Source of the DNA: Paenirhodobacter hankyongi
Lineage (GTDB): Bacteria; Pseudomonadota; Alphaproteobacteria; Rhodobacterales; Rhodobacteraceae
Direction: 5' to 3'
Length of the DNA stretch: 64,000 nucleotides
NCBI RefSeq assembly: GCF_003664585.1
Contig: NZ_RCHI01000014.1
Location: forward strand, 1-64,000
Shown: positions 2,425 to 15,893 of the stretch, piece by piece
Layout: every line of letters begins with the position of its first letter
Position numbering within the stretch: position 1 is the first letter of the stretch
Translations under genes and position numbers: made by a program
The notes under the pieces: model-generated
Database searches by the model: none
What the model was told of the DNA's origin: nothing
The model's input: the letters and a program-made list of their open reading frames with translations, nothing else

Positions 2425-2607
2425 CCTGCTCGCGCAGGATCGCGATGATCTGCTCTTCCGTGAACTTCGATCTCTTCATGTCCGGTCCTCTCCTTGGGAC
2501 GGACTCTAGCATCAGATAGACGAGTTATCGGGGGGCACAGCAGCCCGCCTGCCGCCCGGCTCCGCTACCAATGATACGTCGCCCTATCGCTATCCCGAAC
2601 TCGCCCG

Positions 2608-5600
2608 TCACGAGCACCTGCCGCGATGGCGGTCGAGGTGACGGAGAATCGTCGCAGCGAGGGCATCGATATTTTCGGGCATGAAATAGCGCCCATGCGA
2701 CCCGGGGATGATCTCGACATCATGGCCGGCAGGATAGGCGGTGCGGAACACCTGTTCCGGCGCAGTGACATGACCATAGGGATTGAGATAGCTGCCCGCG
2801 CCGAAGAGAAGCAGGGTGGTGCCGGGATAGTGGAAGAAGCGGCCCTGCTCCATGAGGATGGTCAGCGCGACGGTGCGGCCCTGACGCATCAGCTCCAGCC
2901 CGGCTTCGCGCATCACCAGGCCGCCCTGGCAATTCCCGCCAAGGAACAGGGGGCCGGTCGGGGCGATGGAGGTGATCTCGTCGGCATAGAGCCGACCGAG
3001 CGAGCTGAGGGTGTCGGCGGTGTATTCGACGGCAAGATGTCCCGAGCGCAAGCCGAACAGGGATACCGCCTCGCCCAGACCTTCGCTCAGCCGCGACAGC
3101 TCCTGGCCTGCCTGGAAACACCAGAAGAGCTTCGGTAGCGGCCGCTCTTCGGCCAGGCTCCGCACCAGTCCGGCCTTGCCAAGCCGCCGGCCTGGCCATG
3201 TTGCGAGATGGGGCAGGAGTTTCGCGGTCAGCGCCTCCTCGATGTCGGGTGACGACGGGACATGCGGAGCCTTGAGCCTTGCATCCACCATCAGGGCCAA
3301 GACTTCGACGGTATCGAAGCCAGCCTCGAACCCGGCATCGAGCGTGATGCCGAAAGCGTCCTCGATCGCGAACAGCAGGTTCGCCATCGCAAGAGAGTCG
3401 ACCCCTGCATCGCGCAGGCTGTCGCGTGTGCCGGCGACGACATTGGCCCCGGCTTCCTTGTCGATCAGCGCCATGAGCCTCGCCTCGGTCGCGGTTCCGG
3501 TGGTGCGCGGCTTCGGCGGCTGCGTCAGATGGGGCGGCACCGGCAGGGCGCTGCGATCGCGCTTGCCATTGGCCGTGCGCGGAATCCCGGGAATGGGCAG
3601 AAACACCGAGGGCACCATGTAGGACGGCAGCCGCTGGCGCAGCCGGTCGCGCAGATCGACCGGATCGGGCGCGGGCACGCCGGGCATCATGACCACATGG
3701 GCGATCAGCCGATCGGCGGCATGATCCGAAGAGACGAGCGAGACGGCCGCGTCATTGACGCCGGGCAGGCTGCAAAGGGCCGCCTCGACCTCGCCGGGTT
3801 CGATGCGGTAGCCGTTGACCTTCAGCTGGCTGTCCATGCGTCCCAGACAGATGAATGCGCCGTCTGCTCCGGCTTTTGCCCGGTCTCCTGTCCGATAGAT
3901 GCGGGTGGGACCCAGGCCAGGGAGATCGACCACCGGGAACCGTTGCGCGGTCAGCTCGGGCTGGTGGCGATACCCCCGGGCCAGTCCGGGCCCGAACAGG
4001 CAAAGCTCTCCCTCCTGTCCCGGTGCGACAAGCCGAAGGGTCTCGTCCATCAGACAGGCGCCCATGTTGTCGAAGGGCGTCCCGATGGTGACCGGCGTGC
4101 CGGGCGCGCACCGGGCGAACAGGGCTTCGACCGTGGATTCCGTCGGCCCATAGGCGTTGATGAAGCTGCGGCCCTTGCCCCAGCGTTCGACCAGCGCGGG
4201 AGGGCAGGCCTCGCCCGCCACGATCACATGGGTCAGGTGCGGATGCTCTGCCGGCGGAATGATCGCCAGCGCCGAGGGTGTCAGCGACAGATGCGTCAGC
4301 CTTGCCTGCGCGATGAAGCGGCCGACCGGCGGGCCGGGGACCGCCTGCAAATCCGTGGGATAGACAAGGCAGGCCCCGGCAGCCAGCGTCATGGCCAGAT
4401 CCCCCACCGAGACATCGAAGCCGAAGCCGCTGATCTGCGAGACGCGCGCATCGGGCGAGATCTGGAAATGCCGCGATGCCGCGACCGCGTAGTTGGCAAT
4501 TGCGCCGCGCGAGATCTCGACCGCCTTGGGCGGTCCGGTCGTGCCGGAGGTGAAGATCATATAGGCCAGCGCATCCGCCGCGCTTTCCCGCGCGTCCCAA
4601 TCGGGGGCAGGGCGGCCGTCAGGATCCGGCAACTGGCCGCAATTGACGAAACCGAGGCCGATGTCGGGCAAGGCAGGGCTTGCGGCATTCACGACAACCG
4701 TCCGCACGCCCGCGGTTTCCAGCATGTAGCGCAGCCTTTCCTCCGGCAGAGCCGGGTCGAGCGGCACGAAGACCCCGCCAAGCCGGAGAATGGCGAGGAA
4801 TGCGGTCACGCGGTCCACCGACTGGCCAAGGCAGACACCCACGCTGTCGCCGGCGCTGACACCGGCTGCGGCAAGGGCTGAAGCGAGATCATCGGTTCTG
4901 AGGACAAGATCGGCATAGCTGAGACGGCGGTGTCCCATTTCAACGGCGGGCGCCGTCGGCTGCCGCCTGGCGTGCGCGGCGACAAGGGGCAGCAGGTCGG
5001 GCGGCGTTGGCCGTCTGTCTCCGATCGCGATGCTGGGCATGGTTTCCGGCGCGGACGGGCGCGCGGTCGGGTGCGACAGCGCCTCGGCAAGACGCCGGGC
5101 GAGGGCCGCACCGCTGGCTCCGGCCATGACGACAAGCGTGTCGTCATCCCGCAGATCGTCCTGCACGCGCAACAGCAGCTCTGACAGGTCCGCGACGTGC
5201 TGGTGCGAAAGCCCCTCGGTCCGGCAGGCATCGGCCAGCGCGGCATCTCCGTCGCCCGCCTGCACGCTCTCGCCAAGCGCCGCCACCGGCAGGATGAAGC
5301 TGCGGTCGGCCGCCTTCAGGGCCTGAGCGAAGCGCACGGCCATGCGCGTGACGCGGCTGTGCAACTGCGGTTCGAGGATCGCGATCAGCCGTCCCTGCGT
5401 CGTCTCGCGCAGGACGGCCAGCGCTGCCGCGATCTCGGTCGGGTGATGGGCGAAGTCATCGAAGACGCGCAGCTGGCCCGCCGGGGAAACGCGCTGCAAC
5501 CGCCGCGCGATCCCGCGGAATTCGCCCAGTGCGCCGGCTGCGGTCCGGAAGTCGATGCCAAGGGTTATCGCTATCCCAAGAGCGCCCATCGCATTGAGCA

Positions 5601-6432
5601 GGTTATGGCGCCCCGGAACGGCCAGAGCGAGCGTGCCCAGGGCGTTTCCATGCAGGAAGACTGTGGCGCCTCCCGCCCCATCCTGAACCGCCCGCAACGC
5701 ATTCCCGTCGCCAAAGCCATATGTCAGGGCCGCACAGCGTGCCTGGCCCAGAGCATCGACGACCGCCGGATCGTCGCCGCAGACCACCGCCCGCCCCTCG
5801 GGCGGCAGCCGCGACAGGAAGTCCGCGAAGGCGCGCCGCAACCCGGTCAGCCCGTCATAGTGATCGGCGTGATCGTCATCGAGGTTGGTCAGGATGGCAT
5901 ATGTCGGTTGCCACTGCGCCAAAGCGCCATGGGCCTCGCAAGCTTCGGTCACGAAAGGCGCGTCGGGCGCCCCCAGTCGTGCGGGGGCAATGTCGGGATC
6001 TGCAAAGGATGCCCCCAACATATAGCCGAAATCCTCCGTTCCCGCGGCGCGCAGGATCTGGACGACCATCGCCGTCACCGTCGACTTGCCATGGCTTCCG
6101 GCCACGCAGATGGTGCGCCGCCCGCGGATCAGCTCGGCCAGCATCCGGGCGCGGGTCTTGACGGGGATCCCCTCGCGCCGTGCTGCCCGCCGTTCCACAT
6201 GGGTTTCGGGGATGGCCGGGCTTGCCACGACACATTGCGCGGCCCGCGCAAGGGCCGGATCCGCGCCCGAAAGGACCGCGACCCCCTGTGCTTCCAGAAT
6301 GGCAAGACGTGCAGGGGCGCAGAGATTGTCGCTGCCGGTGACGGAGTATCCTGCCTGTCTGAGCAGAAGCGCCAGAGGCAGCATACCGCTTCCCCCGACC
6401 CCGATCAGGTGCAGCCGCGCGGCGTCAGGCAT
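2608..6432 (-). CDS. MurC-like ligase fused to NRPS A-T-TE
   Basis: This is a 1274-residue chimera. Residues 1-460 are a Mur ligase of the MurC/Mpl type: N-terminal GVGGSG, P-loop GSHGKST (112-118), TNLDDDHADHY (182-192), GRHNLLN (from 274) and DDFAHHPTE (325-333). MurC family members join an amino acid to the carboxylate of a UDP-muramyl-like sugar using ATP. Residues 480-970 are an NRPS adenylation domain: IFTSGTTGPPK (626-636), the amino-acid-binding Asp in GFDVSVGD (D673), YGPTES (761-766), YRTGD (846-850) and NGK (955-957). A carrier domain follows (AGVDSLAMA, pantetheine Ser at 1013). Last comes a thioesterase (1100-1274) with GGNCQGG, so the nucleophile is Cys1168 rather than Ser, and a likely His1246. 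There is no condensation domain. The ATG at 6432 is chosen because GGGAG lies 9 nt upstream; a GTG at 6462 is an alternative. It overlaps the upstream DUF218 gene by 8 bp. The substrate is unknown. Confidence 0.85.
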   Translation of the reverse strand: MPDAARLHLIGVGGSGMLPLALLLRQAGYSVTGSDNLCAPARLAILEAQGVAVLSGADPALARAAQCVVASPAIPETHVERRAARREGIPVKTRARMLAELIRGRRTICVAGSHGKSTVTAMVVQILRAAGTEDFGYMLGASFADPDIAPARLGAPDAPFVTEACEAHGALAQWQPTYAILTNLDDDHADHYDGLTGLRRAFADFLSRLPPEGRAVVCGDDPAVVDALGQARCAALTYGFGDGNALRAVQDGAGGATVFLHGNALGTLALAVPGRHNLLNAMGALGIAITLGIDFRTAAGALGEFRGIARRLQRVSPAGQLRVFDDFAHHPTEIAAALAVLRETTQGRLIAILEPQLHSRVTRMAVRFAQALKAADRSFILPVAALGESVQAGDGDAALADACRTEGLSHQHVADLSELLLRVQDDLRDDDTLVVMAGASGAALARRLAEALSHPTARPSAPETMPSIAIGDRRPTPPDLLPLVAAHARRQPTAPAVEMGHRRLSYADLVLRTDDLASALAAAGVSAGDSVGVCLGQSVDRVTAFLAILRLGGVFVPLDPALPEERLRYMLETAGVRTVVVNAASPALPDIGLGFVNCGQLPDPDGRPAPDWDARESAADALAYMIFTSGTTGPPKAVEISRGAIANYAVAASRHFQISPDARVSQISGFGFDVSVGDLAMTLAAGACLVYPTDLQAVPGPPVGRFIAQARLTHLSLTPSALAIIPPAEHPHLTHVIVAGEACPPALVERWGKGRSFINAYGPTESTVEALFARCAPGTPVTIGTPFDNMGACLMDETLRLVAPGQEGELCLFGPGLARGYRHQPELTAQRFPVVDLPGLGPTRIYRTGDRAKAGADGAFICLGRMDSQLKVNGYRIEPGEVEAALCSLPGVNDAAVSLVSSDHAADRLIAHVVMMPGVPAPDPVDLRDRLRQRLPSYMVPSVFLPIPGIPRTANGKRDRSALPVPPHLTQPPKPRTTGTATEARLMALIDKEAGANVVAGTRDSLRDAGVDSLAMANLLFAIEDAFGITLDAGFEAGFDTVEVLALMVDARLKAPHVPSSPDIEEALTAKLLPHLATWPGRRLGKAGLVRSLAEERPLPKLFWCFQAGQELSRLSEGLGEAVSLFGLRSGHLAVEYTADTLSSLGRLYADEITSIAPTGPLFLGGNCQGGLVMREAGLELMRQGRTVALTILMEQGRFFHYPGTTLLLFGAGSYLNPYGHVTAPEQVFRTAYPAGHDVEIIPGSHGRYFMPENIDALAATILRHLDRHRGRCS

Positions 6433-6988
6433 CGCCCAGATCTCCCTTGAGGGCATATTCACTGATCTTTCCCAGCTCGGCGAAAATGCGCTGCCGACCC
6501 CTCTCGGTCTGCCACCAGGTTTCCGCGGAGAGATCGCCCGGATCGTCCGGGGGCTGGGCCACCAGCCGTATATCGGCCGGGATATGCCGGCGCAGGGTCA
6601 TGATCGCGCGGCGCATGTGAAAGGGTTTGGCGCAGACGGCAAGACTGCGGACCCGTTCCCAGCCCAGCTCGGCTTCGATCAGCGCCGCCCCGAAAGCCGC
6701 GTTCTCGGCGGTATTGCGGGCGGATTTCTCCAGCAGCAGTGCGCTTTCCGCCACGCCAGAGGCGAGCGCGTGATCGCGGTAAAAGGACCATTCTGCCGAT
6801 CCATCGACGGCAGTGCCCGCGCCCGAGATCAGCAGTCTCGGGGCCAGCCCTGCCTTGTACAGCGCGATGGCGGGGTGGAGGCTGCTGATCGTCGGGCTAC
6901 AGAAGACAAATGCCAGATCCACAGGTTCCGGAGGGCATCTTTTGAACAGGAAGGCGCTGATGGCTGTGCGGCTATCATATGGATCCAT
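6425..6988 (-). CDS. DUF218 (YdcF/SanA/ElyC-like) protein
   Basis: This is a 187-residue DUF218 protein. The signature region has RLLISGAG (near 60) and EKSARNTAENAAFG (near 100), followed by AVCAKPFHMRRA. Unlike ElyC or SanA it has no membrane anchor, so it is probably cytoplasmic like YdcF. DUF218 proteins are linked to envelope and polyprenyl-carrier functions, but no reaction is firmly established. The ATG at 6988 has a GGGGGA ribosome site; an in-frame TTG at 7021 would add 11 residues. Its 3' end overlaps the Mur-NRPS gene by 8 bp, so the two are almost certainly co-translated and functionally linked. Confidence 0.75.
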   Translation of the reverse strand: MDPYDSRTAISAFLFKRCPPEPVDLAFVFCSPTISSLHPAIALYKAGLAPRLLISGAGTAVDGSAEWSFYRDHALASGVAESALLLEKSARNTAENAAFGAALIEAELGWERVRSLAVCAKPFHMRRAIMTLRRHIPADIRLVAQPPDDPGDLSAETWWQTERGRQRIFAELGKISEYALKGDLGDA

Positions 6989-7566
6989 CCGGCATCCCCC
7001 AATTCTGCTCAGGCTTTTCAATGGGTTGACTCTACGCGATAACCACCTTGGGGCAATTGAAAACGGCGACGTTGCGGTGGTGTTGATACCGGCCGCCCTT
7101 GACGTATCCGTACGCCGGTTGGGTGTGACAGTTCACACGAACGCTTGAAGTGCGGGATCCGAGGCCGCGAGATCGGCGTCGGTCTCGGCAGTCATGATGG
7201 TGCGCGTCCGCCGCCATACCGCACTCGCCGTGCTGCGCTGCCAAGGTCCGTTTGCCGCCCCTTGTGTCGATGGCAGATGTTCGACCAGCATGTCTCTGAA
7301 AAGAAAAACCTTACGCCACAAGGGATTGGTGATCCTGCCGGCCAACCTGATATGCAGACGGAAATTTCTGAACGGGAGCCGTCGCAGCCAGATTTCCTGC
7401 CTGCGTCAGCACGTTGACAGCCGCCCCACGGGGCGGCCTTTCACGTTCTTCCCGCTGGCGCAACAATAGGTCAACGAACGCGCCAAAACTCCGGCCGGTT
7501 TGACACGGCCTGCAGTGCATGCGACGAAAAGGAACCGTGCTGCACCAAAGTTGGTCTCAATTCCCC
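6989..7566. other. Divergent intergenic region, possible gene remnant
   Basis: This 578-bp region separates the leftward Mur-NRPS operon from the rightward glycosyltransferase-sulfotransferase pair and should hold both promoters. I see no convincing gene. A minus-strand open stretch (stop at 7133-7135, in-frame TGA upstream at 7406-7408) encodes a protein-like segment with LRRLPFRNFRLHIRLAGRIT and VFLFRDMLVEHLPS. It may be a decayed gene, but I cannot name its family. A terminator-like hairpin lies at 7420-7440. Confidence 0.4.
7420..7440 (+). terminator. Rho-independent terminator-like hairpin
   Basis: GCCGCCC and GGGCGGC pair around a short loop (7420-7437), followed by CCTTTC. No intact plus-strand gene ends just upstream, so it may belong to a decayed gene or insulate the glycosyltransferase gene. 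Confidence 0.45.
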
Positions 7567-8481
7567 ATGCGTGTTCTGTTTCATCGGGATTACCGCCACT
7601 TCTCGGGTGGCCATCTCAAGGTGCGGGACTATTTCGAGCATACCCGCAATTGCAGCCGGTATCAGGCGGAAATCTATCTGGAACCGGGCAGCGCTGCCGA
7701 CCATCCCTGGCGCGGGGTCCCGGGTGTCGTCGATCGTTACGATCCGACGCGGGCGGATATCCTGTTCATCGCCGGGATGGACTGGGCGGCGCTCGACGCC
7801 TGTCCGGGCATCGAAGAGCGCATTCCGGTGGTCAATCTCGTGCAGGGACTGCGGCATGCCAAGCCGGACGGCCCGCTGTTCGGCTTCCTTGGTCGCCGGG
7901 CCACCAGAATCTGCGTCAGCGCCGAGGTGGCGCAGGCGCTCGAGGCAACGGGGGCTTGCAACGGCCCCATCCACGTCATTCCGAATGGAATCGACTTCAG
8001 TTTGCTGCCCGAGGGGCATGGTCCCGCCGAATACGATGTCTTCATCAGCGGTTTGAAGCAGCCAAGACTGGCTGCCGAGCTTGCGGCGCGTCTGCAGGCA
8101 GAGGGCTACAGTGTCGCCTGTCAGGTCCAGAGGCTGCCGCGGGGCGATTTCCTGGAGCGACTGGCGCGCGCGCGCGTCGCTGTCTTGCTGCCGCTCCGCG
8201 AGGAGGGGTTCTATATCCCCGCGCTCGAGGCGATGGCCATGGGGCTCCCGGTGATCTGCCCGGACTGCGGCGGCAACCGCTCGTTTTGCATCGGTGGCGA
8301 AACGGCCCTGACGCCCGAACCCGCGCTCGAGCCGCTCGCGATGGCGGTTCGGGAGGTGATGCGCAATCCCGCGCTTGCCGAGGCCTTGCGCCACAACGGG
8401 CGGGAAATGAGCCTCCGCCATGATATCCGTACCGAACGCGAGGCGTTCCTCACCCTTCTTCAGCAGATCGGATTGCCATGA
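7567..8481 (+). CDS. Glycosyltransferase, GT4-like
   Basis: This is a 304-residue glycosyltransferase of the GT-B fold, smaller than a typical GT4 enzyme. It begins MRVLFHRDYRHFSGGHLKV, a nucleotide-sugar transferase style N-terminus. Later features are VIPNGID (near 143), PLREEGFYIPALEAMAMGLP (near 210) and a GGNRSF turn, matching the E-x7-E donor-site region of GT4. No signal peptide is seen. ATG 7567 is preferred because the conserved N-terminus starts there; an upstream in-frame ATG at 7519 would add 16 residues without similarity. Its stop overlaps the sulfotransferase start by 4 bp. It probably transfers a sugar to the product or acceptor made by the divergent Mur-NRPS operon, or to a surface glycan. 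Confidence 0.75.
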   Translation: MRVLFHRDYRHFSGGHLKVRDYFEHTRNCSRYQAEIYLEPGSAADHPWRGVPGVVDRYDPTRADILFIAGMDWAALDACPGIEERIPVVNLVQGLRHAKPDGPLFGFLGRRATRICVSAEVAQALEATGACNGPIHVIPNGIDFSLLPEGHGPAEYDVFISGLKQPRLAAELAARLQAEGYSVACQVQRLPRGDFLERLARARVAVLLPLREEGFYIPALEAMAMGLPVICPDCGGNRSFCIGGETALTPEPALEPLAMAVREVMRNPALAEALRHNGREMSLRHDIRTEREAFLTLLQQIGLP

Positions 8482-9338
8482 CCCCTGATGCCGCACCGAA
8501 CATCCTGCTCACCGGGCCGCCGCGGTCGGGTACGACCCTGACCTGCCATCTGCTGAACAAGCTTCCGAACAGTGTGGCGCTGCACGAGCCGATGGCCCCG
8601 CCGGAGCTGAAGGGGCTGGAGCCGGCTGCGCTGGCAGAGGCGATTTCGCAGTTTGCCGCGGCGCAGCGGGCCCGGATCCTCACCACGGGCCGGGCGACCA
8701 GCAAGGCACTGAACGGCGCGGTGCCCAGCAATCCGCGGACGGATGCCGATGAGAACGGTCAGCGTAAAAGCGCGATAAACGGGATGGAAATCACAGTTTC
8801 CAACGTCAGCAGCCCGGAGTTCAGCCTTTTCATCAAGCATCCGGCTTTCTTTACCGCGGCGCTGCCGGTGTTGACCCGCTACTTCAGCTGCTTTGCCCTC
8901 GTCCGTAATCCGTTGGCCATTCTGTTGTCCTGGCGCACGGCGGGGATGCAGGTTTCCCAGGGGCGCCTGCCCGCGGCGGAACAGGTCGACGCGACCCTGG
9001 CCAATGCGCTGAATGCGGCTCAGGACGTGCTGGAGCGGCAGTTCATTCTTCTCGATTACTGCTTCTCACAGTATCACCGGTTTCTGCCCGGCAGGACGAT
9101 CAAGTACGAAGACATCATCGCCTCCGGAGGCAAGGCGCTGTCGCCCATCAATCCGGCGGCGCGTGATCTTGATGAACCGCTTCGTTCGCGAAACCTGCTT
9201 GGCATCGATACTGACCCCGCGGCGCGTGAGGTCGGCGAGCGGCTGCTTGAGCGCAACTCGCCGTGCTGGGCCTATTACGAAAAGTCGGATGTCGAGGCCT
9301 TGCTGCGCCAGGGGCGAAGCGACACGCCGCCAGTCTGA
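8478..9338 (+). CDS. Sulfotransferase family protein
   Basis: This is a 286-residue PAPS-dependent sulfotransferase. The 5'-phosphosulfate loop is NILLTGPPRSGTTLTCHLL (residues 9-27), with the canonical PPRSGTT motif. The 3'-phosphate binding segment is FALVRNPLAILLSWR (near 140), and KYEDI comes later. The start codon overlaps the glycosyltransferase stop (ATGA), which indicates translational coupling. It presumably sulfates a glycan or glycopeptide built by its neighbours. The acceptor is unknown. Confidence 0.8.
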   Translation: MTPDAAPNILLTGPPRSGTTLTCHLLNKLPNSVALHEPMAPPELKGLEPAALAEAISQFAAAQRARILTTGRATSKALNGAVPSNPRTDADENGQRKSAINGMEITVSNVSSPEFSLFIKHPAFFTAALPVLTRYFSCFALVRNPLAILLSWRTAGMQVSQGRLPAAEQVDATLANALNAAQDVLERQFILLDYCFSQYHRFLPGRTIKYEDIIASGGKALSPINPAARDLDEPLRSRNLLGIDTDPAAREVGERLLERNSPCWAYYEKSDVEALLRQGRSDTPPV

Positions 9339-9453: not shown

Positions 9454-11262
9454 ATGGCAGAGAGCATCCAGAAGGAGGACTGGGAACGCTTTCGGGCCTT
9501 GGGGAGCGTGCCCCCAAGCATTCGCGAAATCGTATTCCGGTCCTGGATCCGGTCACAGGCGCGCGACGGCGTGCATGCGCTGCGGCACGCGCCCTGCGTG
9601 GCGGGCAATGAACTGAACGAGCTGCGCGGCCGGAACGCGCGGTTGCGTCAGGCCGCGCAGGCGGCGGTGCGGCGCACGGGCTACATGCTCGATGACGCTG
9701 GCGCGATGCTGCTTCTGGCCGACCGCTCCGGCGTGATCCTCGACGCGACGGGCGATTCCCGCATTCGCGCCCGCGGCGAGGAGAACCACCTGCATCCGGG
9801 CGGGCGATGGGACGAGGCCGCCATCGGCACGAATGCGATCGGCACCGCGCTGCATCTGGCGAAACCCGCCACCATCTCGGGGGTCGAGCATTTCTGCGAG
9901 GCGATCCAGCGCTGGTCCTGCGCCGCCGCGCCGATCAGCGATCCCCGCACCGGCCGGGTGCTGGGGCTGATCAACATCTCCTCGCCCTCGACCGACACGC
10001 TGCGCCGGGGCGCGGCCTTCTCGGTCAGCCTGGCGCTGCAGATCGAGGAGGCGCTGCGCAGCATCGGGTTGCAGGAACACCAGCGGCTGGTGGACCACCT
10101 GCTGTCGCGCGGCGTGGGGCGGGGTGACGAGGTGATGCTGTTGAACCGGCATGGCCAGCAGGTCTGGTCAAGCCTGCGCGACGCGGGCCCGGATGCGCGT
10201 GGCTCCGGTGGGCCCGTGCTACCGGACCCGGCTCCCGAGCTTGACGGCGATGTCGGCCAGCTTGCCGAGCGGATGCGCGCGGCGCTCCCCGATGCAGGGG
10301 TCGACATCGTCTCGGACGGCAAGGACCCGATCGGCCTGATCGTGACACTGGCCCGCGTGGGCCGGCGCCGGCCCGCCAGCGACGCGCCCGATCTTGCGGC
10401 GATCGCCGGAACCGGGGCGGCGATGGCCGGGATCTGCGCCGAGGCGCAGCGGATCGTCGAGGCGGGCGTTGCGCTGCTGCTCAAGGGGCCGACCGGCTGC
10501 GGCAAGGAAACGCTTGCGCGCGCGCTGCATGCCGACGGGCCGCTGTCCGATCTGCCGCTCGAGGCGCTCGATTGCAGCCTGCTTGATGATCTGGCGCTGC
10601 GCGGCGGGGCGGCGACGGATGCGGTGCTGCGGCTGACCGAAAGGGGCGGCACGCTGATCCTCGACGAGCCGGCGGAAACACCCGCCGCGGTGCAGCCGCT
10701 GCTCGTCCAGAGCCTGACCCAGCTCGCGCGTGGCGCCGAGGGGCGGGTGCAGGTGATCAGCCTGTCCTCGGTGCCGCTGTCCGAGCGGCTGGGCGAGGGA
10801 CGGCTGCGGCCGGATCTCTATTTCCGTCTCTCGGGGGCGGTGGTGCATCTGCCGGGCCTCGCCGAGCGGCGCGAGGATCTGCCTGCGCTTGTTGCCCATC
10901 TGGCGGCGCACTGCCCCGAGCGGCGTCACGGTGGTGCGCTGCGCTTTACCCCCGCGGCGATGCTGCGGCTGCAGGCGCATGACTGGCCCGGCAACCTGCG
11001 CGAGCTGCGCAACATGGTCGAACGGCTGTCGGCGACCTCGTTCAGCCGGCTGATCGACGTGGCCGACCTGCCGCCTGCCATCGCCCAGGGCCGGCGCGCC
11101 GGGCGCGAGCCGACGCTGCGCGACCGCGAGCGGGCGGAAATCCTCGACGCCCTCGCCGAATGCGGCGGCAACATGACCGGGACGGCGCGGCGCCTCGGCA
11201 TCTCGCGCTCGACGCTCTATCTCAAGCTCGAGCAATACGGCGTGCCGCGCGGCCGCCGCTGA
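9454..11262 (+). CDS. acxR: AcoR/AcxR-family activator, GAFTGA-less
   Basis: This is a 602-residue regulator just upstream of acetone carboxylase. Its order is an N-terminal region, a GAF-type sensor (about 80-210), an AAA+ domain (about 320-525; Walker A GPTGCGKE at 345-352, degenerate Walker B LILDEP at 401-406, DWPGNLRELRN near 510) and a Fis-type HTH (558-597; GGNMTGTARRLGISRSTLYL). AcxR is the known acetone-responsive activator of acxABC and is described as sigma54-dependent. The GAFTGA loop that contacts sigma54 is missing here: between DCSLLDDL and RGGTLILDEP there is only a short unrelated segment. The ATG at 9454 has AGGGG about 9 nt upstream; an ATG at 9427 is possible. The open frame extends further upstream into the sulfotransferase gene but without support. 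Confidence 0.85.
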   Translation: MAESIQKEDWERFRALGSVPPSIREIVFRSWIRSQARDGVHALRHAPCVAGNELNELRGRNARLRQAAQAAVRRTGYMLDDAGAMLLLADRSGVILDATGDSRIRARGEENHLHPGGRWDEAAIGTNAIGTALHLAKPATISGVEHFCEAIQRWSCAAAPISDPRTGRVLGLINISSPSTDTLRRGAAFSVSLALQIEEALRSIGLQEHQRLVDHLLSRGVGRGDEVMLLNRHGQQVWSSLRDAGPDARGSGGPVLPDPAPELDGDVGQLAERMRAALPDAGVDIVSDGKDPIGLIVTLARVGRRRPASDAPDLAAIAGTGAAMAGICAEAQRIVEAGVALLLKGPTGCGKETLARALHADGPLSDLPLEALDCSLLDDLALRGGAATDAVLRLTERGGTLILDEPAETPAAVQPLLVQSLTQLARGAEGRVQVISLSSVPLSERLGEGRLRPDLYFRLSGAVVHLPGLAERREDLPALVAHLAAHCPERRHGGALRFTPAAMLRLQAHDWPGNLRELRNMVERLSATSFSRLIDVADLPPAIAQGRRAGREPTLRDRERAEILDALAECGGNMTGTARRLGISRSTLYLKLEQYGVPRGRR

Positions 11263-11297
11263 GCCTCCTGCCGCGGCGCGTCATGGCGTCCGCAGCA

Positions 11298-11326
11298 TGT
11301 CCGGGCGGATGTCCGAAAACCGGACA
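11298..11326. promoter_or_regulatory. TGTCCG half-site array, likely AcxR site
   Basis: TGTCCG occurs at 11298-11303 and 11310-11315, and its reverse complement CGGACA at 11321-11326. The last two form a dyad with a 5-bp spacer. Spacing between half-sites is 11-12 bp, about one helical turn. The array lies about 75-100 bp upstream of acxA, where an activator site is expected. No GG-N10-GC sigma54 promoter was found between it and acxA. Confidence 0.5.
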
Positions 11327-11400
11327 ACATGCCGATCCGGCCGGGTTGCATCCTTTTCTGACGCCACGGGGAGGTGGCGCCAGGGGAGGAGGAAAGACCC

Positions 11401-13554
11401 GTGCCATTGGACAAACAGACAAAACGCCGCGTGCAGGTGCTTGGCATCGACGCCGGCGGGACGATGACCGACACGTTCTTCGTCGACAGTGACGGCGACT
11501 TCGTCGTCGGCAAATCGCAGTCCACGCCGCAAAACGAGGCGCTCGGCCTGATCGCCAGCTCGAAGGAAGGGCTGGAACACTGGGGGCTGACGCTCGAAGA
11601 GGCGCTCTCGGGGATCCAGACCGGCGTCTATTCGGGCACTGCCATGCTCAACCGCGTGGTGCAGCGCAAGGGGCTGCGCACCGGGCTGATCGTCAATGCG
11701 GGGATGGAGGATTTCCACCGCATGGGCCGCGCCGCGCAGGCCTATCTCGGCTTCGCCTATGAAGACCGCATCCACCTGAACACGCATTACTATGACGAGC
11801 CGCTGGTGCCGCGCCACCTGACCCGCGGCGTGATGGAGCGGATCGACATGTCGGGCAACGTGGTGATCCCGCTGCGCGAGGACAGCGCCCGCACCGCGGC
11901 GCGCGAGCTGATCGCGCAGGATGTCGAGGGCATCGTGATTTCGCTGCTGCACTCCTATCGCAACCCGGGGCATGAGCGGCGGGTGCGCGATCTGGTCGAG
12001 GAAGAGGTTGCGGCCGCGGGCAAGACCATCCCGGTCTTCGCCTCGACCGACTATTACCCGGTGCGCAAGGAAACCCATCGCACCAACACCACGATCCTCG
12101 AGGCCTTTGCCGCCGAACCCTCGCGCCAGACGCTGAAGAAGATCACCACCGCCTTCAAGGAGAACGGCTCGAAATTCGACTTCCGGGTGATGGCGACGCA
12201 TGGCGGCACGATCTCGTGGAAGGCGAAGGAACTCGCCCGCACCATCGTGTCGGGGCCGATCGGGGGCGTGATCGGGGCGAAGTATCTGGGCGAGGTGCTG
12301 GGCTATTCGAACATCGCCTGCTCGGACATCGGCGGCACCTCCTTCGACGTGGCGCTGATCACGCAAAACGAGCTGACGATCAAGAATGACCCCGACATGG
12401 CGCGGCTGCTGCTGTCGCTGCCGCTGGTGGCGATGGATTCGGTCGGTGCGGGGGCGGGCAGCTTCATCCGGCTCGACCCCTACACCAAGGCGATCAAGCT
12501 CGGTCCGGATTCGGCGGGCTATCGCGTCGGCGTCTGCTGGGAGGCCTCTGGGATCGAGACGGTGACCGTCTCCGACTGCCACGTGATCCTCGGCTACCTG
12601 AACCCCGACAACTTCCTTGGCGGTCAGGTCAAGCTCAGCCGCGAGCGCGCCTGGAACGCGATGAAGGAACAGGTCGCCGACCCGCTCGGCCTGTCGGTCG
12701 AGGATGCGGCCGCGGGCGTCATCGAGCTTCTGGACAGCGACCTGCGCGACTATCTGCGCTCGATGATCTCGGGCAAGGGCTACAGCCCGAGCAGCTTCGT
12801 GTGTTTCAGCTATGGCGGCGCGGGGCCGGTCCATACCTACGGCTACACCGAGGGGCTGGGCTTCGAGGACGTGATCGTGCCGGCCTGGGCCGCGGGCTTC
12901 TCGGCCTTCGGCTGCGCGGCGGCGGATTTCGAATACCGCTACGACAAGTCGCTTGACATCAACATCGCCACCGATGCCAGCGAGGACCTGAAGACGACGC
13001 AGGCGCAGACCCTGCAGGCGGCCTGGCAGGAGCTGAAGGAGCGCGTGCTCGAGGAATTCGAGATCAATGGCTACAGCCCCGACAAGGTGCAGCTGCAACC
13101 CGGTTTCCGCATGCAGTATCGCGGTCAGCTCAACGATCTCGAGATCGAATCCCCGATCGTCGAGGCGCAGGGCGCCGAGGACTGGGACCAGCTGGTCGAG
13201 GCCTTCAACGACACCTATGGCCGCGTCTATGCCGCCTCGGCGCGCTCGCCCGAGCTCGGCTATTCGGTGACCGGCGCGATCATGCGCGGCACGGTGCCGA
13301 TCCCGAAGCCGAAGATCCCGAAGGAAGAGCTTCAGGGCGAGACCCCGCCGGAAGCGGCCAAGCTCGGCAGCCGCAAGTTCTACCGCCACAGGAAATGGGT
13401 CGATGCCCAGCTTTACCAGATGGAACGGCTGCAGCCGGGCAACCGCATCACCGGCCCCGCGATCATCGAATCCGACGCCACGACCTTCGTCGTGCCCGAC
13501 GGTTTCGAGACCTGGCTCGACGGGCACCGCCTGTTCCACCTCAAGGAAGTCTGA
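11401..13554 (+). CDS. acxA: Acetone carboxylase beta subunit AcxA
   Basis: This is a 717-residue hydantoinase A/ATPase-type subunit. It has the N-terminal phosphate-binding motif VLGIDAGGTMTDTFF, then TGVYSGTAMLNRVVQRKGL, SDIGGTSFDVALIT and SYGGAGPVHTYGYTEGLG. Length and sequence match AcxA of Xanthobacter and Rhodobacter acetone carboxylase. The enzyme converts acetone, bicarbonate and ATP to acetoacetate, AMP and phosphate in an alpha2-beta2-gamma2 complex. The GTG at 11401 is chosen: GGAGGA lies about 8 nt upstream, and the protein then has the family length. An in-frame GTG at 11374 would add 9 residues. It is the first gene of acxABC. Confidence 0.95.
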   Translation: MPLDKQTKRRVQVLGIDAGGTMTDTFFVDSDGDFVVGKSQSTPQNEALGLIASSKEGLEHWGLTLEEALSGIQTGVYSGTAMLNRVVQRKGLRTGLIVNAGMEDFHRMGRAAQAYLGFAYEDRIHLNTHYYDEPLVPRHLTRGVMERIDMSGNVVIPLREDSARTAARELIAQDVEGIVISLLHSYRNPGHERRVRDLVEEEVAAAGKTIPVFASTDYYPVRKETHRTNTTILEAFAAEPSRQTLKKITTAFKENGSKFDFRVMATHGGTISWKAKELARTIVSGPIGGVIGAKYLGEVLGYSNIACSDIGGTSFDVALITQNELTIKNDPDMARLLLSLPLVAMDSVGAGAGSFIRLDPYTKAIKLGPDSAGYRVGVCWEASGIETVTVSDCHVILGYLNPDNFLGGQVKLSRERAWNAMKEQVADPLGLSVEDAAAGVIELLDSDLRDYLRSMISGKGYSPSSFVCFSYGGAGPVHTYGYTEGLGFEDVIVPAWAAGFSAFGCAAADFEYRYDKSLDINIATDASEDLKTTQAQTLQAAWQELKERVLEEFEINGYSPDKVQLQPGFRMQYRGQLNDLEIESPIVEAQGAEDWDQLVEAFNDTYGRVYAASARSPELGYSVTGAIMRGTVPIPKPKIPKEELQGETPPEAAKLGSRKFYRHRKWVDAQLYQMERLQPGNRITGPAIIESDATTFVVPDGFETWLDGHRLFHLKEV

Positions 13555-13577
13555 CGGTCTCAGGGAGGAGATAAGTC

Positions 13578-15893
13578 ATGAACATGCAGACCTCGGTCAA
13601 GACCCGCGGCATCGTGCGCGGCGGCGAGACCCTGAAGGAGCACCGCGACCGGCTGATGGAAGCCACGAAGCGGACCAAGCACTATGCCGGCCTGTCGAAG
13701 ATGGCGCTGCGCGACGCCGAGCCGATCAAGTACAACAAGCTGTTCTCGCGCCTGCGCGCCGGGGTGGTGGATGCGCGCGAGACCGCGAAGAAGATCGCCG
13801 CCTCGCCGATCGTCGAGCAGGAGGGGGAACTGTGCTTCACCCTCTACAATGCCGCGGGCGATTCGATCCTGACCTCGACAGGGATCATCATCCACGTCGG
13901 CACCATGGGCGCGGCGATCAAGTACATGATCGAGAACGGCTGGGAGGAGAACCCGGGCATCCGTGACGGCGACATCTTCTGCAACAACGACAGCCTGATC
14001 GGCAACGTCCACCCCTGCGACATCCACACCATCGTGCCGATCTTCCACGAGGGCGAACTGATCGGCTGGGTCGGCGGCGTGACCCATGTGATCGACACCG
14101 GCTCGGTCGGGCCGGGCTCGATGTCGACGGGGCAGGTGCAGCGCTTCGGCGACGGCTATTCGATCACCTGCCGCAAGATCGGCGAGAACGACACGCTGTT
14201 CCGCGACTGGCTGCACGAGAGCCAGCGGATGGTGCGCACCACGCGCTACTGGATGCTGGACGAGCGCACCCGCGTTGCCGGCTGCCACATGATCCGCGAT
14301 CTGGTGAAGGAGGTGATCGCCGACGAGGGCATCGAGTCCTACTGGAAATTCGCCTATGAATCGGTCGAGCATGGCCGCGTCGGCCTGCAGGCCCGGATCA
14401 AGGCGATGACCATTCCGGGCAAGTATCGCCAGGTCGGTTTCGTCGACGTGCCCTATGCGCACGAGGATGTCCGCGTCCCCTCGGACTTCGCCAAGGTCGA
14501 CACGATCATGCACACGCCGTCCGAGATCACGATCCGCGGCGACGGCACCTGGCGGCTGGATTTCGAGGGCTCCTCGCGCTGGGGCTGGCACACCTACAAT
14601 GCCCATCAGGTGAGCTTCACCTCGGGGATCTGGGTGATGATGACGCAATCGCTGATCCCGACCGAGATGATCAACGACGGCGCCGCCTATGGCACCGAGT
14701 TCCGCCTGCCGAAGGGCACCTGGATGAACCCCGACGACCGGCGGGTGGCCTTCTCTTACAGCTGGCACTTCCTGGTCAGCTCGTGGACGGCGCTCTGGCG
14801 CGGGCTCTCTCGCGCCTATTTCGGCCGCGGCTATCTCGAGGAGGTCAATGCCGGCAACGCCAATACCTCGAACTGGCTGCAGGGCGGGGGCTTCAACCAG
14901 TATGACGAGATCCACGCGGTGAACTCGTTCGAATGCGCGGCGAACGGGGTCGGCGCCTCGGCGCACATGGACGGGATCAGCCATGCGGCGGCGGTCTGGA
15001 ACCCCGAAGGCGACATGGGCGACATGGAGATCTGGGAACTGGCCGAGCCGCTCGTCTATCTCGGGCGGCAGATCAAGGCCTCCTCGGGCGGCGCGGGCAA
15101 GTATCGCGGCGGCTGCGGCTTCGAGAGCCTGCGCATGGTCTGGAACGCCAAGGACTGGACGATGTTCTTCATGGGCAACGGCCATATCTCGTCGGACTGG
15201 GGGCTGATGGGCGGCTATCCGGCGGCCTCGGGCTATCGCTTCGAGGCGCATGACACCCGGCTGAAGGAGATCATCGCCGAGGGCGGCGCCATTCCCTGCG
15301 GTGGCGACACCGACCCGGAGAACCCGACCTGGGAGGCGATGCTGCCCGATGCCCGGATCAAGCGCGACAAGCAGGCGATCACCACCGAGGCGATGTTCAA
15401 GGACTATGACCTCTACCTCAACTACATGCGGGGTGGTCCGGGCTTCGGCGATCCGCTCGACCGCGAGCCGCAGAAGGTGGCCGATGATGTGAACGGCGGA
15501 TATCTGCTGCCGCGCTTTGCCGACAGCGTCTATGGCGTGGTTCTCACCGATGCCGGCGATGGCATGAAGGGCGTCGATGTCGCCGCGACCGAGGCCCGGC
15601 GCCGTGCCATCCGCAGGGCCCGGCTCGAGGAGTCGGTGCCGGTCAGCGACTGGATGGCCTCCGAGCGCGAGAAGATCCTGAACAAGGAGGCGGGCGTGCA
15701 TGTGCAGCAGATGTTCGCGGCCTCGTTCAAGCTCGGGCCCCGCTTCGAGCAGGACTTCCGCGCCTTCTGGAACCTGCCGGCGGAGTGGAAGCTGATGGAA
15801 GCGGACCTGCCGATCCCCTCCTACGGGCGGGAATACTCGATGGACATCTCGGAACTGCCCGACGTCAAGACCGTCCAGTTCGTCGAGGAATGA
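13578..15893 (+). CDS. acxB: Acetone carboxylase alpha subunit AcxB
   Basis: This is a 771-residue hydantoinase B-type subunit, close to the length of known AcxB. Typical stretches are EGELCFTLYNAAGDSI, FCNNDSLIGNVHPCDIHTIV, GGVTHVIDTGSVGPGSM and NMGDME-like segments, with the conserved RGGPGFGDPLDREP near the C-terminus. In the crystal structures the alpha subunit carries the metal site where acetone enolate is carboxylated. The gene starts 23 bp after acxA with a GGGAGGAG ribosome site. Confidence 0.95.
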   Translation: MNMQTSVKTRGIVRGGETLKEHRDRLMEATKRTKHYAGLSKMALRDAEPIKYNKLFSRLRAGVVDARETAKKIAASPIVEQEGELCFTLYNAAGDSILTSTGIIIHVGTMGAAIKYMIENGWEENPGIRDGDIFCNNDSLIGNVHPCDIHTIVPIFHEGELIGWVGGVTHVIDTGSVGPGSMSTGQVQRFGDGYSITCRKIGENDTLFRDWLHESQRMVRTTRYWMLDERTRVAGCHMIRDLVKEVIADEGIESYWKFAYESVEHGRVGLQARIKAMTIPGKYRQVGFVDVPYAHEDVRVPSDFAKVDTIMHTPSEITIRGDGTWRLDFEGSSRWGWHTYNAHQVSFTSGIWVMMTQSLIPTEMINDGAAYGTEFRLPKGTWMNPDDRRVAFSYSWHFLVSSWTALWRGLSRAYFGRGYLEEVNAGNANTSNWLQGGGFNQYDEIHAVNSFECAANGVGASAHMDGISHAAAVWNPEGDMGDMEIWELAEPLVYLGRQIKASSGGAGKYRGGCGFESLRMVWNAKDWTMFFMGNGHISSDWGLMGGYPAASGYRFEAHDTRLKEIIAEGGAIPCGGDTDPENPTWEAMLPDARIKRDKQAITTEAMFKDYDLYLNYMRGGPGFGDPLDREPQKVADDVNGGYLLPRFADSVYGVVLTDAGDGMKGVDVAATEARRRAIRRARLEESVPVSDWMASEREKILNKEAGVHVQQMFAASFKLGPRFEQDFRAFWNLPAEWKLMEADLPIPSYGREYSMDISELPDVKTVQFVEE

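Follow-up and report, generated by a model that had tools for sequence, protein, structure and literature searches.

Within the first 64,000 nucleotides of contig NZ_RCHI01000014.1 of Paenirhodobacter hankyongi (the whole stretch analyzed, hereafter the window) lies a minus-strand gene that joins a Mur ligase to a nonribosomal peptide synthetase (NRPS) module. A single unbroken frame (2608-6462) encodes 1284 residues when read from a GTG and 1274 residues from the ATG at 6432, and its product carries, in one chain, a MurC-clade ligase, an adenylation domain (A), a carrier (T), and a thioesterase (TE). Mur_ligase, Mur_ligase_M, Mur_ligase_C, AMP-binding, AMP-binding_C, and PP-binding all score above their Pfam cut-offs; Pfam positions follow the 1284-residue numbering, from which 10 is subtracted for the 1274-residue form. 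No Pfam match to a condensation domain (C) was found in the fusion protein, and the Mur part occupies that place. The uninterrupted frame and these domain calls establish as genuine the in-frame 1274-residue Mur-NRPS fusion described in an earlier note on this DNA. The fusion ATG overlaps the stop codon of a DUF218 gene at 6425 as ATGcCTGA, and ATGNCTGA recurs in 10 of the 11 loci compared, the exception being L030. Coordinates of these and neighboring features are collected in Table 1.

Table 1 Features of the fusion locus in the window.
Feature	Position	Strand	Details
Mur-A-T-TE fusion gene	2608..6432	-	1274 residues from ATG 6432; GTG 6462 is an alternative start
MurC-clade ligase part, residues ~1-455	5068..6432	-	GSHGKS ATP loop, E163, H188, DDFAHHP
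Adenylation domain, residues ~456-975	3508..5067	-	Code DVGSIAAVEK at presumed PheA positions
Carrier (PP-binding), residues ~985-1045	3298..3480	-	Attachment Ser1013
Thioesterase, residues ~1061-1266	2635..3252	-	Proposed triad Cys1168, Glu1195, His1246
DUF218 gene	6425..6988	-	187 residues from conserved ATG, or 6425-7021 from first TTG; overlaps the fusion gene
79-bp remnant	2461..2539		87% match to P. enshiensis DNA immediately after its GH3 stop
Glycosyltransferase	7519-8481	+	Passes Pfam cut-off
Sulfotransferase	8478-9338	+	Sub-threshold Sulfotransfer_3, 21.1 of 27 bits

The fusion is not confined to the window. A pattern scan of genome contigs, from which the best 80 of 514 candidates (78 loci) were kept, contains 12 loci that match both parts of the fusion (L023-L034) and 66 that match the Mur part only. 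Hosts of the 12, among these best 80 of 514, include Pararhodobacter, Cypionkella, Sphingobium, Rhodobacter, Sinirhodobacter, Xinfangfangia, Paenirhodobacter, Asticcacaulis, Falsigemmobacter, Paracoccus cavernae, and two further Rhodobacterales metagenome-assembled genomes. A plasmid search found another fusion on Paracoccus aminophilus pAMI4 (L101), and five genomes among 101 relatives carry it: G000, G003, G016, G011 (L012/L102), and G010, which has two partial copies that both lie against masked stretches. Genome surveys added G550 (L121) and the distant G949 (L162, 36%). The fusion is nevertheless rare, occurring in 3 of 394 family genomes at E 1e-150 (two further matches, G598 and G712, are C-A-T-TE proteins) and in 1 of 385 genomes of a class survey, the window's own; such surveys with a whole-protein profile rank only a handful of candidates from each genome, so that distant fusions may escape them, and G949 was recovered only with a Mur-only profile. 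A Mur match at 1e-62 is present in 342 of 349 Proteobacteria, where, among the matches listed, only the window's own genome (838 bits) and G949 (452 bits) stand clear of the rest (≤338 bits).

Twelve loci are intact (window, L023, L024, L026, L027, L029, L031, L101, L012, L121, L032, and L162). The 11 outside the window share the same architecture at 36–94% identity; the window and L029 are the closest pair (94%), and every other pair is at most 90% identical. L028, L030, and G010 are incomplete at a contig end or mask, and the frames of L025, L033, and L034 are broken through decay or sequencing error. No frameshift or assembly join separates the Mur and NRPS parts in any of the 12 intact loci. 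Comparison of the window with L029, L027, and L023 gives dN/dS values of 0.20–0.35 in each of the four domains, and purifying selection acts on every one of them. Since the same architecture recurs intact in 11 loci of other genomes and is under purifying selection, we reject a join artefact. At its TE end (2635-3252) the window gene is nearer to L027 than to L029 (dN 0.066 versus 0.111), while the Mur and A parts show the reverse, which suggests recombination within the gene.

The ATP loop, the catalytic Glu and His, and the DD[YF][AG]HHP motif of the Mur part form invariant columns in 11 fusions. The window domain scores 318.2 bits with NCBIfam murC (cut-off 335.1) and 184 bits with NCBIfam mpl (cut-off 388.7), below the threshold in both cases. 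In a tree of 12 fusion Mur domains, 27 MurC, and 8 Mpl sequences, the fusions form one clade (SH-aLRT 100); the tree was built by a quick method that flagged long branches, and support for the MurC group itself is only 35. By profile and tree, the fusion Mur domains are placed on the MurC side, apart from Mpl, so the former label "MurC/Mpl-type" keeps its first half and loses its second. An Mpl-type recycling ligase is ruled out by the mpl score, the trees, and the missing Mpl motif DEYD, which is not present in the fusions. The window genome has a separate MurC homolog, which groups with MurC in an additional tree.

According to passages of a MurC study (PMC3060825), the incoming amino acid is bound by His376, Arg377, Arg380, Tyr346, and His348. 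We aligned 14 fusions with 27 MurC rows at these positions. The His376 column holds His in 27/27 MurC rows, and Gln (13) or Leu (1) in the fusions. At Arg377 the fusions have Leu (13) or Ser (1), and MurC has Arg (15), Leu (8), Thr (3), or His (1). The Tyr346 column is Phe in all 14 fusions and is divided between Tyr (14) and Phe (13) in MurC, while His348 and Arg380 are retained in every fusion and every MurC row. In the window, Q356 and L357 stand at the positions of H. influenzae MurC His376 and Arg377. His376 thus appears, in this alignment, to be the only clean pocket difference between fusions and MurC.

The adenylation part of the window protein scores 367.1 bits with TIGR01733 (cut-off 317.4), and the carrier serine, Ser1013, is invariant in 11 aligned fusions. 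The code DVGSIAAVEK, its ten positions being those we take to correspond to PheA numbering, differs at no more than two positions in 11 of 12 rows (L028 ends before the last position); L032 reads DAHGNGIMVK. We claim no substrate prediction, as the code overlaps what we take to be ornithine-type and phenylalanine-type codes alike. Mur-less relatives of the A-T-TE part are C-A-T-TE proteins (L119, L120, L122, and L143), A-T-TE proteins, or near-standalone forms. Because C-A-T-TE modules are among the closest of these relatives, the Mur domain stands where a condensation domain would.

These relatives also bear on a scheme with two reactions in one chain, in which Mur would ligate a free amino acid to UDP-N-acetylmuramic acid (UDP-MurNAc), A-T-TE would add a second through its cysteine thioesterase, and the fusion would only channel. 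Retention of all Mur catalytic motifs and Arg380 agrees with this scheme, as does the distant fusion L162, whose 355 bits exceed the NCBIfam murC cut-off of 335.1; moreover, A-T-TE proteins that have neither C nor Mur exist, which implies that A-T-TE can function with no amide-forming domain ahead of it. The C-A-T-TE relatives, however, carry an amide-forming domain at the same place, and the pocket His376 is lost in 14/14 fusions. We consider the two-reaction scheme unlikely, while ranking it first among the alternatives.

The thioesterase of the window scores 21.2 bits with Pfam Thioesterase, below the cut-off of 26.4, and the distant fusions L032 and L162 exceed that cut-off. A family profile of this part retrieves NRPS thioesterases in the PDB, and its AlphaFold model (pLDDT 94.7) matches NRPS, polyketide synthase, and type II thioesterases. 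A Cys nucleophile and an invariant Glu and His are present in 12/12 aligned rows (ten fusions and two C-A-T-TE proteins), a profile alignment places Cys at the nucleophile position in 10/10 further relatives, and the motif GGNCQ is common to the fusions and their C-A-T-TE relatives. The earlier note did not mention the cysteine. In the AlphaFold model, the invariant Glu1195 appears to lie directly after the strand preceding beta-7. A ring former of the SulM/ObiF type is not claimed, the acid seeming by alignment and model to occupy its ordinary place.

Relatives of this thioesterase occur in other settings. Plasmid loci of Rhodobacter CZR27 (L122), Methylomagnum ishizawai (L123), and Pseudanabaena ABRG5-3 (L126) have NRPS genes that adjoin glycosyltransferase, flippase, pyruvyltransferase, or wzy genes, a hint of polysaccharides decorated with peptides or amino acids. 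Contig 23 of the window's own genome encodes a second protein with a relative of this thioesterase, as A-T-TE (L140, 12306-15194), beside a gene that resembles uroporphyrinogen decarboxylase, as read from its protein start, and L141, which continues L140, holds an NRPS-siderophore-like cluster. On a Gemmobacter aquarius plasmid (L125, 6059-10723) and at L145 (6872-11949), A-T-TE genes that encode this type of thioesterase adjoin a gene with a common LHxDRA-type start, possibly adenosine-deaminase-like; L125 also has a possible sulfotransferase near its A-T-TE gene.

The DUF218 protein encoded upstream of the fusion scores 60.7 bits with PF02698 (cut-off 27.6), its fold is nearest to YdcF (Foldseek 3ca8, E 1.9e-07), and it is the only match in the window genome, in which no other DUF218 was found. 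We searched 17 fusion stretches (the window and 16 others) by tblastn with the DUF218, GH3, glycosyltransferase, and sulfotransferase proteins discussed here. DUF218 is present in 16/17, and the one miss, L013, starts inside the fusion gene. It also stands beside the fusion in L121 and L162, lies upstream at every locus with a readable 5′ side, and shares one open frame with the fusion in L032. Around the Mur-less relatives it was found in 0/14 stretches (13 loci, as L141 merely continues L140), which indicates that DUF218 goes with Mur and not with the thioesterase. The linkage reported earlier is therefore conserved, and the homologs found are fused and DUF218-linked rather than separate and unlinked. 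The gene has dN/dS values of 0.11–0.19 between the window and L029, L027, and L023. A search of phages with DUF218 gave one weak, unannotated match (27%).

Thr93 of DUF218 is nearly invariant, and His124 and Glu171 are invariant; by motif only, they resemble the putative Thr, His, Glu triad given for SanA in passages on ElyC and SanA. Those passages present ElyC and SanA as membrane-anchored E. coli DUF218 proteins that affect peptidoglycan synthesis or biogenesis, and name no reaction for them; besides the MurC study, the background literature comprises PMC11298585, PMC3879167, PMC12176290, PMC2812497, and PMC7601586.

A GH3 gene lies downstream of the fusion in 10 of 15 loci with a readable downstream side (L023, L024, L026, L027, L029, L031, L033, L034, L101, and L121). 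It is a frequent companion that the earlier note did not notice, and it is lost in the window strain. The GH3 protein scores 193.5 bits with PF00933 and matches solved N-acetylglucosaminidases (6k5j, E 6.1e-44) with the KHFPGHG...DSH motif aligned. At the window locus the gene itself is absent, and only the downstream remnant is left. An IS3-family transposase open reading frame (1244-2170) and the C-terminal piece of a UvrD-type helicase (140-715) lie near the site of the loss. One other GH3 relative (37% identity) in the window genome is presumably its ordinary NagZ. As separate MurC- and NagZ-type homologs remain in this genome, the operon is extra.

Loss of the GH3 gene near a transposase gene, together with the broken frames of L025, L033, and L034, could mean that the window strain holds a decaying or non-functional chimera. 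We regard this as very improbable: 12 loci are intact, L102, L032, and L162 also lack GH3 yet have intact genes, and despite the loss the dN/dS values of the four domains against three relatives give no indication that the window copy is decaying.

We favor, at a probability of roughly 0.4, a small dedicated operon whose product is an amino-acyl form of UDP-MurNAc or of a UDP-sugar acid much like it, given the MurC-derived ligase, the DUF218 partner, and the frequent NagZ-like GH3. The same features make plausible the amino-acylated muramyl-type product proposed earlier, and the company of cell-wall-related genes makes an amino-acid-modified sugar of the cell wall the probable product of the fusion. 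The adenylation domain, as it and the carrier are intact, would activate an amino acid and load the carrier serine. By the chemistry of its family, the MurC-clade domain would use ATP to turn a sugar carboxylate into an acyl phosphate and then form an amide bond. The amine would most likely be that of the amino acid supplied by A-T, possibly while carrier-bound, because Mur stands where the C-A-T-TE relatives have their condensation domain, and the Mur pocket that would receive a free amino acid is altered. The cysteine thioesterase may release or transfer the product, and DUF218 and, where present, the NagZ-like GH3 could act on the same cell-wall sugar pool.

We infer, as most likely, a Mur domain in place of a condensation domain, together with the substrates and product fates given here. 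Taken to its full detail, this would have Mur act as a condensation domain: the amine of an amino acid bound to the carrier as a thioester would be linked by Mur to the lactyl carboxylate of UDP-MurNAc. The cysteine thioesterase would then hydrolyze the resulting UDP-MurNAc-aminoacyl-carrier intermediate, cyclize it to a lactam cap, or hand it on, and DUF218 would act on the product. In so exact a form the proposal is doubtful.

Several observations weigh against an operon for amino-acyl UDP-MurNAc. DUF218 proteins of cell-wall studies are membrane-anchored and periplasmic, whereas that of the window is nearest by fold to the soluble, cytoplasmic YdcF. GH3 is missing in 5/15 loci (window, L025, L102, L032, and L162), and the L029 protein scores 166.2 bits, below the cut-off of PRK05337 (207), the NCBIfam beta-N-acetylhexosaminidase; despite its motif and its resemblance to N-acetylglucosaminidases, we therefore call it NagZ-like and no further. 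Arg377 is also replaced in 12/27 MurC rows and Tyr346 is Phe in 13/27, so that only His376 marks the pocket. In the A-T-TE tree, C and A proteins separate two groups of Mur fusions: either the module or the domain ahead of it may have been exchanged, or the tree may be unsure, and a single origin of the fusions is compatible with it. Finally, the cysteine-thioesterase relatives at L122, L123, and L126 adjoin polysaccharide genes, which fits another acceptor.

That acceptor is central to a scheme of surface-glycan tailoring, in which A-T-TE, with its cysteine thioesterase, would aminoacylate a polysaccharide sugar and Mur would amidate a sugar acid other than UDP-MurNAc, such as a uronic acid. 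Besides the plasmid loci, the window itself offers a glycosyltransferase and a possible sulfotransferase next door, in open reading frames that overlap by 4 bp, which the earlier note had included in the system as the source of a glycosylated and sulfated product. Neither gene has a match in the 16 other fusion stretches. Sulfotransferase homologs (64–65%) occur in 3 other of 18 genus genomes: in G011 and G010 they lie away from the fusion, and G014 has no fusion match. In G003 and G016 the fusion is present without any sulfotransferase match. The pair is thus not a conserved part of the fusion system, and a glycosylated, sulfated product finds no support in these comparisons. As the Mur domain also retains its MurC N-terminal motifs, and DUF218 accompanies the Mur fusions and not the Mur-less relatives, glycan tailoring seems decidedly improbable.

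Beyond the sulfotransferase, the window encodes a sigma-54-type activator together with two subunits whose relatives are acetophenone carboxylase, caprolactamase, or hydantoinase-type enzymes (9454-15893), the subunit matches all falling far below curated cut-offs. This gene set presumably resembles an acetone carboxylase operon. As a candidate, a defense system was set aside, PADLOC giving no match for the 5 proteins searched.

Amide-bond formation is common to cell-wall ligases and peptide assembly lines, each with its own activation chemistry, and the fusion combines the two kinds of enzyme. No description of an enzyme that does so was found among the papers listed in full-text searches of the openly licensed literature. 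If Mur does use a carrier-bound amino acid, assembly lines would gain a new bond-forming domain and muramyl-nucleotide chemistry a new point of entry; if it acts as a condensation domain, the result would be a carrier-protein route to muramyl nucleotides in which an acyl phosphate does the work of a C domain. DUF218, as a constant partner that one relative even carries in fused form, also offers a route to the function of DUF218 proteins.

Among known systems, MurC, which ligates L-Ala to UDP-MurNAc, is the nearest family by profile and tree, a three-domain ligase with the same ATP and catalytic motifs; the fusions differ in forming a separate clade, in replacing His376 in every case, and in carrying a C-terminal A-T-TE, and the window protein falls short of the murC cut-off. 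Mpl shares the Mur fold and the DDFAHH motif, but lies on the opposite side of the SH-aLRT 100 branch and has the DEYD motif that the fusions lack. The bifunctional MurC-Ddl protein (PRK14573) likewise fuses MurC to another enzyme that activates an amino acid; this other half is a D-Ala-D-Ala ligase and includes neither carrier nor thioesterase, and the window protein scores only 200.7 of 1015 bits with this family. Single-module C-A-T-TE NRPSs of Rhodobacteraceae (L119, L120, L122, and L143) share the order of A, T, and cysteine thioesterase and the GGNCQ motif with the fusions, but have a condensation domain instead of Mur and no DUF218 beside them. The SulM and ObiF1 thioesterases are likewise NRPS-terminal and use a cysteine nucleophile; in the passages describing them their acid follows strand beta-7, whereas the fusion Glu is modeled after the preceding strand, the usual place. 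According to the same kind of passage, the uncharacterized AB3403 has its acid after the strand before beta-7, as the model predicts for the fusion thioesterase.

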